This document shows, one piece after another, positions 12,510-16,959 of a stretch of DNA of 51,912 nt (positions within the stretch are counted from its first letter, which is position 1; every line of letters starts with the position of its first letter). Below the pieces are notes generated by a model. It did no database searches, was not told the origin of the DNA, and saw only the letters and a list, made by a program, of their open reading frames with translations. The position numbers and the translations under genes are program-made. The stretch covers positions 1 through 51,912 of the forward strand of contig JAFYZX010000025.1 in the NCBI GenBank assembly GCA_017548505.1, in the 5' to 3' direction. This DNA comes from Bacteroidales bacterium. Its GTDB lineage: Bacteria > Bacteroidota > Bacteroidia > Bacteroidales > UBA932.

Positions 12510-13886
12510 TTACTTCTTGATGAATTCTACGCGGCGGTTCTTTGCCCTGCCTGCTTCTGTGGAGTTGTCTGCAACTGGCTCGTGGCTTCCCTTGCCCACA
12601 GCCCTGAGGTTGAATGAATCGACTCCCATTCCCTCAAGTGCCTTGACAACGGCTTCTGCTCTCTGCTGAGAAAGCGGATCGTTCACCTTGTCAGAGCCCT
12701 GGTTGTCGCAGTGTCCCTGAACTTCGAACCTTACGTTAGGGTTCTTCTTCATATAGTCAGCCACCTTCTTGATTTCCTCCATACTCTCTGGCTTTAGATC
12801 TGCCTTTCCGGAAACGAACAGAATGTTGTTTGTAACAAATTTTCCGCTCTCAGCGATGGCCTTTGAAACAGCATCCATATCTGTTACAGTCTGATCATAG
12901 AGATCCATAGCGCCTTTGGCATAGCGGAAGTTTGTTACATAATTATTGTTGCCGTTGAATCCGCCCCATTCTGCCTGATGGATTATCATACGCACAGCTG
13001 GTCTGCAATTAGGGATGTTAATAACACGCTTGTTGTTAACATAGATCTTTAGGGCACGCTTGTTGAAAGACAAAGCAAAGTGGCTCCAGTCATTCTTCTT
13101 CAACTCCCAAGTCTTGCCGTCGCCAGAATCTCTCCAGTCACCTGCGGTAGATAAGTAACGGCATGTTACTGATAGTTTGTCATAACTTTCGCCAATTCTG
13201 ATTTCATAAGCATCATCACCCTGCGCATCCTTGAACTCAAGCTCATAGCAGTTGCTAAGTTCTGTCTTAGGGTCGTTCATCCAGAAATCGAACTCTAAAG
13301 TGAATACATCCGGGATATAACTCTTTTGATTGGTCATCAGAGGTTCAACCCTTGACCCCGGTTCAAAATGGAGGCACTTAAAACCTTTTAAATTAGCCAC
13401 ATCCGCAGAGCCCTCGATTAGATCCCATTTAGACGGGAACTCGCCCATCTGCTCAGTCTTCAAATCATCTTCAAAGAAAGCAACAGCTCCAGGCACGAAG
13501 TCGCTTTGTTCGTATTGAGCTTCAGCAGGGGTATTGTCCGGGCGTTTGGTTCCGCACTGGTCGCAGAACTTTCCGGTGTTGCCCTTGTGGCCGCACTCTG
13601 GGTTAGGGCAAGTCCAGGTGCCAGGCTTGGCAACTGTTACATCCTCGCCATCGTCTTCATCCTCGTCGTCACTGTCCTTGGATTTCTTGTCCTTGTCTTT
13701 TTTCTTTCCGCTTAGAAGCCCGCCTATGCCGTCAAAAACTTTGTCAACGGCCTGGTCTACGGTCTCTTCGGTCTTGTTCTCGGTTTTGTCCTTAACTGCC
13801 TTGCCAATTTTCTTCAGGAAACCCTGTGCACTAGCTGCTGTGCAGACCAGCATCATGGCAACAAGGAGCATAATCAACTTTTTCAT
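12510..13886 (-). CDS. OmpA-family protein with zinc ribbon and LamG-like domain
   Basis: This 458-residue exported protein has a signal peptide (MKKLIMLLVAMMLVCTAASAQ). After it come an amphipathic segment and a highly charged linker (KKKDKDKKSKDSDDEDEDDGED), then a four-cysteine zinc ribbon (CPNPEC..CDQC, about residues 94-115). A LamG/concanavalin-like domain follows (FTLEFDFWMNDP, WSHFALSFNKRALKIYVNN, about 150-320), then a C-terminal OmpA peptidoglycan-binding domain (residues 350-458, VQGHCDNQG, LSQQRAEAV, NRRVEF). OmpA domains anchor proteins to the cell wall. A zinc ribbon in an exported protein is unusual. It probably heads the lipoprotein operon. Confidence 0.85.
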   Translation of the reverse strand: MKKLIMLLVAMMLVCTAASAQGFLKKIGKAVKDKTENKTEETVDQAVDKVFDGIGGLLSGKKKDKDKKSKDSDDEDEDDGEDVTVAKPGTWTCPNPECGHKGNTGKFCDQCGTKRPDNTPAEAQYEQSDFVPGAVAFFEDDLKTEQMGEFPSKWDLIEGSADVANLKGFKCLHFEPGSRVEPLMTNQKSYIPDVFTLEFDFWMNDPKTELSNCYELEFKDAQGDDAYEIRIGESYDKLSVTCRYLSTAGDWRDSGDGKTWELKKNDWSHFALSFNKRALKIYVNNKRVINIPNCRPAVRMIIHQAEWGGFNGNNNYVTNFRYAKGAMDLYDQTVTDMDAVSKAIAESGKFVTNNILFVSGKADLKPESMEEIKKVADYMKKNPNVRFEVQGHCDNQGSDKVNDPLSQQRAEAVVKALEGMGVDSFNLRAVGKGSHEPVADNSTEAGRAKNRRVEFIKK

Positions 13887-14239: not shown

Positions 14240-14247
14240 TTATAGCC

Positions 14248-14268
14248 TAGTACTCATCCTCGTTGAAG
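14248..14268 (-). repeat. Direct repeat, distal att-like copy
   Basis: This is identical over 21 bp to 16739-16759. On the minus strand it reads as the C-terminal codons FNEDEY plus stop of DUF2795, preceded by only a 16-codon open frame (MCIIHKTHYN...). It is best read as the displaced original 3' end of the target gene. Confidence 0.75.
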
Positions 14269-14394
14269 TTGTAGTGTGTTTTGTGTATAATACACATTGT
14301 CAATATATTACCATTGTGTTCAAAAACTGGGGATAGCTACAGGGGTAGTCTGATGTAGCTTAATTGCAACTAATTGGATTGATGAGCCCCATTT

Positions 14395-15720
14395 TTACTC
14401 TCCTTGCTCCGGAACAGGAATCCCTGCGGCGCGGAGAAATCCTTCGATTGCGTACAGAGGAAGATTCTCCATCCAGCCTTGGTCGATGTAGTTCAACATT
14501 GAGAGCCGGAGGCCTTTCAGGTTGGGATGTTCATCAATGTATGTCTTAAGAGATTTAGCTTTGACATTTTCCTCAGCCTTAGCCTCAATGGGGACAACAC
14601 GCTTTTCTGTCTGGACGGCGAAGTCTATCTCCACTTCAGATTCGTTGGTGGAATAGTAGAAGGTGGGAATCTGGATACGGGCTAATTGCTCATTGACATA
14701 GCACTCAGTGAAGGCTCCTTTGAACTCCTTGAAGATATTGTCGCCAACCAGCATCTGGGAAGCGGGAACATCTGTCATAGCCCCGAGCAAGCCCACATCC
14801 AATGGGAAAACCTTGAATACATCGAAATCTTCGTAAAAACTGAGCGGGTATTCAATCTTGGAGACGCGATGTACTTTATAGATGAGACCGGCATCTTTGA
14901 GCCAAGTAATGGCTATTTCAAAGTCCTTGGCCCTGGCGCCTTTACGTATGGCTCCATAGATGAGCTTCTTGTTCTCTTTTGCCAGATGGGAAGGGAGAGA
15001 ATCCCAAACCATTTCGATTCGTGGTACTTCCTTCTTGGGTGCGTGCTTTGAAAAGTCTTTGCGGTAGCCGGCAAGGATATCTTTATGGATCTTGCGGACG
15101 GCATTGAGCCCTTTACCGGCGATGTAACCGGCAACGGCTTCGGGCATACCGCCTACGTAATAATACTGCCTGAGGAGGTCTATATACTTTTGACTCAAGG
15201 TGTTTACTGCGATCCAGTCACATTCCAGGAGCAACTGCGTCAGTTTCTCGTTGCCTGTAGCGTTCAGGAATTCGTGCAGGGACATCGGGAACATCCGGAC
15301 AAGTTCTACCATTCCGACTGGGAAAGACTGGTCTTCGTGGATAGAGATGCCAAGGAGAGAGCCTGCGACAGCCACATCATACTCCGGGAAGTCTTCCTTG
15401 AAGTATTTGAGGCAGCCCAGGGCTGCAGCGCTTTCCTGAATTTCATCGATGATAATAAGCGTATCCTTAGGGACGATATCCACGCCTGTATGGGCAGACA
15501 ACGTACGGATGATTCTCTTGATGTCGTGATCTGGCTCAAAGATAGATTTGGCCACGGCCTCTTTATCCAAGTTGACATAGGAGACGCTTTTGTACTCCTT
15601 TGCACCGAACTCTTTGAGAATATAGGTTTTGCCAACCTGACGTGCACCATCAAGGACAAGGGGCTTATGGTCTCTACGAGACTGCCAATCAAGTAATTTT
15701 TGGTATATATCTCGTTTCAT
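14395..15720 (-). CDS. AAA_14/DUF4143 ATP-binding protein
   Basis: This 441-residue protein of the archaeal-type ATPase group is common and multicopy in Bacteroidales. The N-terminal AAA_14 domain has P-loop GARQVGKTY (near residue 25) and Walker B LIIIDEIQES; the C-terminal DUF4143 domain carries an ESEVEIDFAVQ...VVPIEAKAE segment resembling a PD-(D/E)XK nuclease fold. The start is the ATG at 15720 (MKRDIYQKLL); the frame extends nine codons upstream to a TTG or ATT. Upstream is a triplicated 33-bp repeat. Its function is unknown; a link to mobile DNA or toxin-antitoxin behaviour has been suggested for the family. It is the only intact gene of the presumed element. Confidence 0.85.
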   Translation of the reverse strand: MKRDIYQKLLDWQSRRDHKPLVLDGARQVGKTYILKEFGAKEYKSVSYVNLDKEAVAKSIFEPDHDIKRIIRTLSAHTGVDIVPKDTLIIIDEIQESAAALGCLKYFKEDFPEYDVAVAGSLLGISIHEDQSFPVGMVELVRMFPMSLHEFLNATGNEKLTQLLLECDWIAVNTLSQKYIDLLRQYYYVGGMPEAVAGYIAGKGLNAVRKIHKDILAGYRKDFSKHAPKKEVPRIEMVWDSLPSHLAKENKKLIYGAIRKGARAKDFEIAITWLKDAGLIYKVHRVSKIEYPLSFYEDFDVFKVFPLDVGLLGAMTDVPASQMLVGDNIFKEFKGAFTECYVNEQLARIQIPTFYYSTNESEVEIDFAVQTEKRVVPIEAKAEENVKAKSLKTYIDEHPNLKGLRLSMLNYIDQGWMENLPLYAIEGFLRAAGIPVPEQGE

Positions 15721-15727
15721 ATCACAC

Positions 15728-15807
15728 AAATTCTGACGAATAAACAAGTATAATCAACAAAAATTCCGACGAATCTTTGCCGCAAATATACAAAAATTCC
15801 GACGAAT
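15728..15807 (-). repeat. Three 33-bp-period repeats upstream of ATPase gene
   Basis: The 14-mer AAATTCCGACGAAT occurs at 15761-15774 and 15794-15807, and as AAATTCTGACGAAT at 15728-15741, spaced exactly 33 bp apart. On the minus strand the frame reads FVGIFVYLRQR, FVGIFVDYTCL, FVRICVI and stops in an ATGA overlapping the ATPase start. Either these are protein-binding iterons or an 11-residue repeated leader peptide. Confidence 0.7.
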
Positions 15808-15916
15808 GCCGAAGCACGGAAAGAACCTTCTGAAGTGTCCCGCTTGTGGAGTCAAAAAACCACAAATCATTGCTCCCTGTCACAGGTTATTGCAAATATA
15901 CACTTTTTGCGTGTAA
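15806..15916 (+). CDS. Doubtful 36-residue CxxC mini-ORF
   Basis: ATG to TAA encodes 36 residues (MPKHGKNLLKCPACGVKK..., then PCH), with a CPAC knuckle and later Cys/His that could bind zinc. It overlaps the last repeat copy at its start. No promoter or ribosome-binding signal is seen, and nothing else supports translation; it may be a remnant. Confidence 0.2.
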   Translation: MPKHGKNLLKCPACGVKKPQIIAPCHRLLQIYTFCV

Positions 15917-15946
15917 TTCTTTTTCTTTGGTTTACAACAGATAATC

Positions 15947-16123
15947 TCAATCATCATTTGATAAGAATCTCCATTTCATACTGCTGGCCAGAATAACGTC
16001 CGAGCCATTTTGGAATTCGACTAATCCATCTGTAAAGTGTAGCTGTAAGTTCGTGATAGTCTTATCCTTGAAATCATTGGAGACGTTAATGGTATCGACT
16101 TCGGCCAGTTCTATGCACAACAT
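15947..16123 (-). CDS. Hypothetical 58-residue protein
   Basis: This is a short open frame with plausible protein composition (MLCIELAEVDTINVSNDFKD... TDGLVEFQNGSDVILASSMKWRFL). The same frame is open upstream to about 16216, reading DDADETESRKIVYLRLAIDCGLWQF and overlapping the 3' end of the integrase remnant in another frame. It could therefore be the tail of a longer, truncated gene. Family not recognised. Confidence 0.4.
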   Translation of the reverse strand: MLCIELAEVDTINVSNDFKDKTITNLQLHFTDGLVEFQNGSDVILASSMKWRFLSNDD

Positions 16124-16158
16124 GGCAAATTGCCAGAGGCCACAATCTATTGCAAGCC

Positions 16159-16560
16159 TCAGATAGACGATTTTACGGGATTCAGTTTCATCAGCGTCAT
16201 CGACTTGCCTCCGGTATGGAATCTCTCAAAGTCTGAAAACACTCGCAGATAACTCCGGTGGTTGTAGTAGGTCTGATAGGTGATTTGTTTCTTGAGGAAC
16301 CTTGACTCCAGATATTCCAGCGCAAAATCGACAAGCGTTACCATCCTGGGGCGGTCTTCCTCTGCCACATGTGTCCCCTTAAGGATTGAACCAATGAGCG
16401 TAATCGTCAGGTTTTCAGGTTTACACTTCCCGTGTTGCTCCATAATGCCTGCCTTGAAAGCCGCCAGTTCCGCATTGATGGATAGTGACTCTTCAGTATT
16501 CCCGGATGCCATTTCCCTCCGGCTGTCCCATAGGTCCGGCTCGATGGAAACTCCTGATGG
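16159..16560 (-). pseudogene. Truncated tyrosine integrase (N-terminal part only)
   Basis: The translation (GVSIEPDLWDSRREMASGN..., LVDFALEYLESRFLKKQITYQTYYNHRSYLRVFSDF) matches the arm-binding and SAM-like core-binding domains of Bacteroidales phage-type integrases. It stops after about 130 residues with LMKLNPVKSSI, before any catalytic R...HxxR...H...Y motif; the first ATG (16512) is internal to the arm domain, and the frame remains open upstream without a good start. The gene has lost both ends. It lies next to the right direct repeat, where an element's integrase is expected. Confidence 0.7.
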
Positions 16561-16589
16561 AGGAGGAATACTGCCACAAATCAGCAGCT

Positions 16590-16632
16590 CAAAAAAGAGG
16601 GTAAAACAGTGGGCAAAAAAGAGGACAAAACA
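16590..16632. repeat. Tandem 24-bp repeats beside the integrase remnant
   Basis: CAAAAAAGAGGGTAAAACA (16590-16608) and CAAAAAAGAGGACAAAACA (16614-16632) match at 17 of 19 positions with a 24-bp period. A third partial copy (AAAGAGGGTAA) is at 16691-16701. Their place between integrase and direct repeat suits integrase arm-type sites; this is inferred. Confidence 0.5.
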
Positions 16633-16642
16633 AATAGAAAAA

Positions 16643-16668
16643 CGGCCCCAGAGCGCGCTCTAAGGCCG
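16643..16668. other. Strong hairpin between integrase remnant and DUF2795
   Basis: CGGCC pairs with GGCCG around an internal CC/AA mismatch, and AGAGCG/CGCTCT forms a perfect inner palindrome. On the plus strand it is followed by ATTTTAAC, on the minus strand by GTTTTTCTATTTGTTTT. It may terminate DUF2795 transcription on the minus strand, or be part of the recombination site. Confidence 0.55.
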
Positions 16669-16737
16669 ATTTTAACAAATAACCGCCCATAAAGAGGGTA
16701 ACTTTAGGTCGGTCATAAATCTCTAATATTCAACGAG

Positions 16738-16959
16738 TTAGTACTCATCCTCGTTGAAGAAAAAGTCTTCCTTGCTCGGATAGTCAGGCCAAAGGTCTTC
16801 AATGTTGTCGAATACCTCTTCCTCGTCTTCAATGTCGTTGAGGTTCTCTATTACCTCGTCTGGAGCGCCGGAACGCATCGCATAGTCTAACAGCTCGCTT
16901 TTTGTGGCTGGGAACGGGGCATCTTCAAGTTTTGATGCTAACTCTAAAGTCCAGTACAT
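16738..16959 (-). CDS. DUF2795 family small acidic protein
   Basis: This 73-residue protein matches the DUF2795 group of Bacteroidales: YWTLELASKLEDAPFPATKSELLDYAMRSGAP, then an acidic tail (LNDIEDEEEVFDNIEDLWPDYPSKEDFFFNEDEY). The function is unknown. Its last codons are duplicated 2.5 kb away, suggesting it is the insertion target of the element. It has its own canonical promoter (16985-17014), with a leader of about 20 nt. Confidence 0.85.
   Translation of the reverse strand: MYWTLELASKLEDAPFPATKSELLDYAMRSGAPDEVIENLNDIEDEEEVFDNIEDLWPDYPSKEDFFFNEDEY
16739..16759 (-). repeat. Direct repeat, gene-proximal att-like copy
   Basis: These 21 bp form the 3' end of the DUF2795 coding sequence and are identical to 14248-14268. 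Confidence 0.75.

Follow-up and report, generated by a model that had tools for sequence, protein, structure and literature searches.

A DUF2795 gene end as the probable attachment site of a family of Bacteroidales tyrosine-integrase elements

Why should the end of a small protein gene occur a second time, 2.5 kb away? The question is raised by contig JAFYZX010000025.1 of a Bacteroidales bacterium (assembly GCA_017548505.1), all 51,912 nucleotides of which form the window analysed here. The last 21 bp of its 73-aa DUF2795 gene belong to an exact direct repeat, with same-orientation copies at 14248-14268 (distal) and 16739-16759 (gene side) spaced by 2,491 bp; on the minus strand both copies read FNEDEY-stop, the stop being TAG in the distal copy and TAA in the gene. 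An original prediction, made from the letters of the window, had described this repeat and the spelling of its second copy. The repeat proves exact; its FNEDEY-stop pattern had no match in 100 dinucleotide-preserving shuffles of the window, and a chance origin was rejected. The same prediction had seen here a site-specific element that rebuilds the 3' end of a small protein gene, and the evidence below supports it on a wider scale than first noted. With a probability of roughly 0.93, we propose that the last 21 bp of DUF2795 are the bacterial attachment site (attB) of a family of Bacteroidales tyrosine-integrase elements, and that the window segment is a decayed member of that family resembling a cis-mobilizable element (CIME).

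Insertion polymorphism comes from a close relative, genome G011, whose DNA matches that of the window at 98.9% identity over 4 kb upstream. The gene end occurs three times in G011, and the distal two copies enclose a version of the window's element that is longer by 796 bp (blastn identity 99.1-99.8%, with one internal deletion). Between the gene and this element, exactly at the DUF2795 3' end, G011 has an extra element of 7,937 bp. The 421 bp from the gene end in the window correspond, at 99.05% identity, to the sequence after the second gene-end copy in G011, and the flank beyond the last copy is 96.9% identical between the two. Because those 421 bp follow the second copy in G011, the window is, judged from this alignment, the empty site of the 7,937-bp element. 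Measured against the window as attB, the gene-side copy in G011 agrees at the base in the Asp codon and departs from it at the Tyr codon and stop; in the second copy this pattern is reversed, with a difference at the Asp codon and agreement at the Tyr codon and stop. Since these attachment (att) site hybrids switch between the Asp and Tyr codons, strand exchange probably took place within GAGTA. In another pair of genomes, G030 and G019, a common 421-bp distal flank (99.5% identical) is preceded by different inserts, 7,562 vs 780 bp. The suggested comparison with empty sites thus yielded one for the 7.9-kb element of G011 in the window itself, and one for the window's own 2.5-kb element only in the distant G021, where sequence homologous to the window's distal flank begins ~105 bp after the gene (76-81% identity, ~153 bp offset) and a homologue of the window's OmpA-family gene lies 210 bp behind DUF2795 (locus L033).

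The search for integrases beside DUF2795 3' ends elsewhere, also suggested with the prediction, found them across Bacteroidales. Profiles were built from alignments of integrases behind DUF2795, and loci were recruited by sequence alone. In 148 genomes, all nine with strong matches have the integrase directly behind DUF2795, and two weak matches (E 6e-51 and 4e-46) are not behind it. Among 393 genomes of the order there were 11 strong matches, and each lies beside the gene or the att motif, as does a broken one in G200. The motif was present at none of 33 weaker integrase loci (18 from the order search, 15 from a class search, with flanks of at most 1.5 kb on each side). A search of genome_contigs found 196 integrase relatives, of which 80 were kept; 75 of these 80 have a same-strand DUF2795 gene whose last codon is 195-281 bp before the integrase match (one of the 75 genes is cut by the contig start). 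At L235 an att copy lies upstream of the integrase and is itself preceded by the end of another element, as in an array. One of the 80 loci, L256, has neither the gene nor an att copy in that place, three were untestable (L251 is N-masked; L280 and L284 begin too close), and the integrase of L091, 2.2 kb from the gene, was not counted as adjacent.

A tree was built from 121 of 132 loci with a match, rows shorter than 330 aa having been dropped; five pairs of loci are duplicates (L031/L224, L042/L225, L157/L274, L095/L301 and L168/L261). Its 121 rows (111 different) place 90 on one side of a branch with a Shimodaira-Hasegawa-like approximate likelihood ratio (SH-aLRT) of 100. Among these 90 clade rows, 85 are att-adjacent, two are untestable and three are labelled without att (L251 masked, L174 convergent, L256 an exception); the 31 rows outside comprise 28 without the motif and three untestable. 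Integrases that are identical or nearly so turn up in records under the names Bacteroides, Alistipes, Barnesiella, Muribaculum and Phocaeicola, a pattern suggestive of recent horizontal spread, errors in the binning of metagenome-assembled genomes (MAGs) aside. Two genome_contigs loci with a DUF2795 gene and the same clade, L229 and L246, come from MAGs titled Saccharibacteria and Clostridiales; the integrase of L246 is identical to that of L249, from a Prevotella MAG with a similar isolate name, and both taxon labels are probably binning errors.

Could these elements instead be a prophage or phage-satellite family? Satellites typically have tyrosine integrases and defence cargo, and both are present here. 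We nevertheless consider a phage origin very unlikely. The integrase profile had one match in viral_contigs, at 25% identity, and a tightened attachment pattern had none there; in phage records no member of the integrase family above 30% identity was among the matches listed (best 20 of 33), nor was one in plasmid records (best 20 of 71). Moreover, the element of G440 encodes a Mob_Pre relaxase (E 5e-12).

Members of the family have much of their anatomy in common. Left ends run from the restored stop through a hairpin, T-rich sequence and TTTGTTTG repeats to the integrase, the hairpin being present in most left ends examined. Sixteen left ends, all chosen from a single hairpin type, have 99.2% of their stem cells paired, and at four pairs both sides change. 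Homology (z 11.6-57.0) also unites the right ends of five elements (G440, G053, G377, G461 and G200), in which the TTTGTTTG repeat recurs. The hairpin would act as a terminator and the repeats as integrase arm sites. Repeat-bounded units span 0.5-28 kb, with four larger elements of 14,335, 16,736, 18,801 and 27,853 bp. The G011 integrase is complete (Phage_integrase E 6e-24, Phage_int_SAM_5 E 5e-8). Downstream of the main integrase, the 7.6-7.9-kb elements at L031 and L042 have a second tyrosine recombinase, 199 aa long and consisting of the catalytic domain only. Pfam identified core genes as DUF3987 and Mob_Pre in G440 and DUF6371 in G343; open reading frames (ORFs) of G053, G343 and G200 resemble the Mob_Pre ORF in their opening residues, and neither a 223-aa core ORF nor the 311-aa ORF of G011 had a Pfam match. 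As a family, these elements have a complete catalytic integrase (G011), insertion at a fixed site that restores the target gene, and a relaxase gene (G440), all three being features of an integrative and mobilizable element (IME).

Array junctions were found in G011, G343, G053, G200, G112, G071, G088 and G892. After the distal copies of G053, G200, G112, G071 and G343 comes the left end of another element, and in G343 a second integrase follows the distal copy. Some units lack an integrase. That of G071 (1,570 bp) has both family ends and a single AAA_14 gene, whose DUF4143 match falls below the Pfam cut-off. In G088 a unit lies between two att copies 1,537 bp apart and is 90% identical to that of G071 over the gene and right end; its left end differs from that of G071, a right end precedes the unit and a left end follows it. 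The 5 kb read around the G088 unit held no DUF2795 gene, so that its link to DUF2795 is by inference. G015 has a 94% identical AAA_14 gene without family ends. Integrase-less one-gene units might be what deletion has left behind (CIMEs) or might be cassettes mobilised in trans.

Repeat-bounded inserts without a recognised integrase (G071, G112, G091, G052 and G019) might suggest that the repeat is the target-site duplication of a transposon, or bounds integron-type cassettes without a dedicated integrase, the integrase association being due to chance. We give this little credence. In 75 of 80 loci an integrase of a single clade follows the gene at an almost constant distance, 28 of the 31 tree rows outside that clade lack the motif (the other three being untestable), and both ends of the integrase-less G071 unit are those found in elements with an integrase. 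Because such units keep the family ends, we raise a further, tentative idea, possible in our view but with the odds leaning against it: the DUF2795 end may be an integron-like platform, at which docking integrase-bearing elements also move integrase-less one-gene units in trans. If true, exchangeable anti-phage modules would be collected at one site across a whole order.

DUF2795 itself is widespread as a target, with a match in 142 of the 148 genomes (the window's own included), usually single. Of the 393 genomes of the order, 367 contain a degenerate pattern for its 3' end, as a rule in one copy; reversed, the pattern had three matches in the whole set. At least two copies were counted by hand in 26 of the 393 genomes, some on separate contigs that could not be placed. 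Extra 3'-end copies occur at nine of 135 loci (the window and 134 others), 11 copies in all and every one on the strand of the gene, none being on the opposite strand; nine is a floor, since many loci end a few hundred bases past the gene. No extra copy arose in 20 mononucleotide shuffles of each locus. The survey omitted G056, G057, G078, G080, G088, G098 and G133, of which G088 was read separately. Two matches are evidence neither way: the only one to a mid-gene control word is a self-match (L066, whose contig starts inside the gene), and an opposite-strand match with three mismatches in L161 arose where the gene end is masked by N and the query was not the gene end. That the distal copy in the window is a tandem DUF2795 duplication decayed to its last 21 bp, a refuting condition named with the prediction, is very unlikely. 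A duplication would likewise yield two same-orientation gene ends, but the repetition extends over no more than the final ~21 bp, what precedes the distal copy is the end of an element, also present in G019, and the same end repeat recurs at nine of the 135 loci with differing interiors. Attachment at DUF2795 3' ends is supported by a dedicated integrase clade and by insertion polymorphism at the gene end.

Two loci of other kinds were seen in these surveys. At L048 (G014), a partial inverted second DUF2795 copy with stops lies ~2.1 kb downstream of the intact gene. At L175/L313 (G193) the att motif and a clade integrase occur in DNA that has no DUF2795 gene in the part available and adjoin what by eye is a gene for a major facilitator superfamily-type transporter; the G193 genome has four copies of the motif in all.

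Between its two copies, the window segment contains all the parts that had been claimed for it, namely an integrase fragment, an AAA/DUF4143 ATPase, tandem repeats and a hairpin. Its features, with their neighbours, are as follows.

16738..16959, minus strand: DUF2795 gene, 73 aa, the putative attachment (target) gene, with its stop at the 16738 end (Pfam DUF2795, E 2e-17).
16738..16759, minus strand: gene-side att copy, coding FNEDEY-stop, left boundary of the element (exact 21-bp repeat).
14248..16738, no strand: decayed inserted element, 2,491 bp (blastn against G011; repeat spacing).
16638..16673, minus strand: hairpin just inside the element, where many family members have a terminator-like hairpin (inverted repeat).
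16590..16632, minus strand: tandem repeats of 12-bp period, presumed integrase arm-type sites, at the position of the family's TTTGTTTG repeats (repeat family; position comparison).
16159..16512, minus strand: truncated tyrosine integrase, with the N-terminal and SAM-like part and without the catalytic domain (36.1 bits against the clade profile; Phage_int_SAM_5 in the G011 copy).
16172..16184, no strand: junction of the 796-bp deletion relative to G011, with ~13 bp of overlap (blastn blocks 1-587 and 575-2512 of the element).
15947..16123, minus strand: 3' remnant of a 124-aa ORF present in G011 (tblastn 100% to L031:6218-6391).
14395..15747, minus strand: AAA_14/DUF4143 ATPase, presumed cargo, PADLOC candidate family PDC-S01 (Pfam E 4e-32 and 4e-26; PADLOC E 3e-171).
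14269..14394, no strand: right end of the element, homologous to the right end of the 780-bp insert of G019 (68.8% over ~155 bp; z 13.4 against 60 shuffles).
14247..14268, minus strand: distal att copy, right boundary of the element (exact 21-bp repeat).
12510..13886, minus strand: OmpA-family gene, chromosomal neighbour on the distal side (Pfam OmpA).

The region 16610-16740, which includes the hairpin, folds with a z of -2.49, equalled by two of 200 shuffles. The integrase fragment starts ~225 bp after the DUF2795 stop, the usual spacing of the family, and stops before the catalytic domain. Taken alone it is weak in Pfam (E 0.1), and its 183-aa form in G011 lies just at the gathering score (22.3 bits); against the profile of DUF2795-associated integrases it scores 36.1 bits, and the phmmer matches listed for the G011 form are all clade rows. 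Both att sites are kept, integration and transfer genes are lost (no catalytic part is left of the integrase, and 796 bp present in G011 are deleted), and we recognised no relaxase, the ORF list having no gene of relaxase size besides the ATPase. By these comparisons the segment is a decayed, integrase-deleted, CIME-like remnant holding a DUF4143 ATPase; most plausibly it belongs to a second lineage that uses the same site, and has kept its ATPase through the decay. A repeat in three copies with 33-bp spacing, ending AATTCNGACGAAT, spans the start of the ATPase gene and the sequence just upstream of it (15719-15807), and is possibly an operator for that gene.

That DUF4143 ATPases may travel as cargo was a further suggestion of the original prediction, and it gains support from the gene common to the window and G011 and from the second AAA_14 ATPase unit of G071 and G088. 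PADLOC assigned PDC-S01 to the ATPase of the window and, at E 3e-24, to that of G071. It also found type II methyltransferases in G011 and G030, with a type II restriction enzyme in the latter; a DUF1848 gene in G112; a weak PDC-S10 match in G052; type I restriction, HEC-06, a cyclase of the cyclic oligonucleotide-based anti-phage signalling system (CBASS) and a 2TM effector in G053; type I restriction in G440; a type III restriction enzyme, C3a139 and TmtA in G200; and a partial SspH match in G343. No PADLOC match was obtained for four of the ten proteins scanned in the first set, among them the presumed restriction enzyme of G011 (its Pfam match is sub-threshold), or, in the larger elements, for one of ten in the set including G053 and G440 and three of seven in that including G200 and G343. 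The proteins were chosen by hand (17 of 49 ORFs for the larger elements), and the matches thus show the presence of defence genes and are no measure of enrichment. Relatives of the window's ATPase at E <=1e-100 occur in 27 of the 148 genomes, the window's own and G011 included. One of them lies 3.3 kb downstream of DUF2795 in G140 (contig C6, 42476-47273), a genome with no second copy of the att pattern. At L154 (G052), two short repeat-bounded units follow DUF2795, one of 468 bp and one of three genes that by eye include nucleotidyltransferase-like and metallophosphatase-like genes, the first two genes having no Pfam match; the right ends of these units matched none of the other elements tested.

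Several observations weigh against the explanation we propose. The evidence is comparative throughout, and excision, a circle or transfer was not observed. With ~1% base divergence between G011 and the window, one of the bases that place the crossover could be an ordinary substitution, and the empty state of the window's own element comes from a single diverged relative. Its integrase fragment is short and distant from the clade (the best phmmer E of the G011 form among the 121 integrases is 1e-12), the G011 form occurs in the 148 genomes only in G000 and G011, and those genomes hold no full-length close relative of the fragment. The nearest homologue of its ATPase outside G011 (79%, in G023) is on a different contig from DUF2795. 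Within the clade, L256 is a true exception with no att nearby, and the integrase of L174 (G320) is convergent to the DUF2795 gene; the tree program warns of long branches that meet. Lastly, the inserts of G091 and G052 share no right-end sequence with other elements and may be unrelated. As to the G320 locus (L174/L213), its diverged clade integrase lies ~0.6 kb downstream of DUF2795 and points towards the gene, and the fetched DNA holds no second att copy.

On the attachment-site explanation, the site on the element (attP) would carry the element's own copy of the DUF2795 gene end, and strand exchange, placed within GAGTA from one genome pair, would rebuild the coding end with the element's version. 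In most members the element-borne hairpin would come next, probably as the gene's new terminator (the hairpin being observed and termination presumed), followed by the integrase gene. Each later arrival would again use the gene end as its site and displace the older elements away from the gene, so that tandem arrays build up; the integrase and core genes would be lost while both att copies are kept. Because a Mob_Pre (MobV-type) relaxase gene was found, the larger members probably depend on a helper conjugation system for transfer, and some would carry defence cargo with them.

Bacteroidales is an order prominent in the gut and rumen. The 21-bp end of one conserved small gene would offer a predictable docking site there for finding defence genes by position. 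With it come integrases whose target is mapped, and a model, open to testing, for how restriction, CBASS and as yet uncharacterised ATPase systems pass from family to family. A further question is the function of the near-universal DUF2795 protein, whose C-terminal codons would double as a conserved attB.

Among known systems, integrons combine a terminal integrase with units that are each delimited by one short site and arranged in arrays. The elements described here are partly similar in all three respects; they differ in that the site is the end of a coding gene in direct orientation, in linear 21-bp repeats, and in that larger members carry a relaxase. A literature search, with most subscription papers and preprints outside it, found neither DUF2795 nor DUF4143 associated with an integrase, with DUF2795 named at all in two papers, and the combination of a DUF2795 target with an integrase clade was not reported in the material searched, mostly listings and the openings of abstracts. 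Integration into the 3' ends of protein genes is already known; the DUF2795 target and its integrase clade are new as far as searched. The recombinase-associated acquired interbacterial defence (rAID) clusters of Bacteroidales are alike in having a tyrosine recombinase with arrays, in the same order and with a defensive role; by their description (PMC12247911), they are co-oriented short immunity genes with intergenic motifs, whereas the elements here carry DUF3987, DUF6371 and Mob_Pre genes together with anti-phage matches. A close likeness is to IMEs, for which a review describes integration in the 3' ends of protein genes, CIMEs and accretion (PMC5704250). As in IMEs, there is a tyrosine integrase, direct repeats that restore the end of the target gene, a relaxase, restriction-modification cargo and tandem structures. 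The window and G011 fit the review's description of CIMEs and accretion, with the integrase and transfer genes lost, the att sites kept and a newer element at the gene-side att; unlike those CIMEs, some units here are one gene long, with a 90% identical gene in the G071 unit beside DUF2795 and in the G088 array unit. The Bacteroidota entries examined in that review use tRNA genes or loose sites, and DUF2795 was not among the target genes examined there, whereas the present clade of integrases keeps to a single small protein gene, in hosts labelled as many families.

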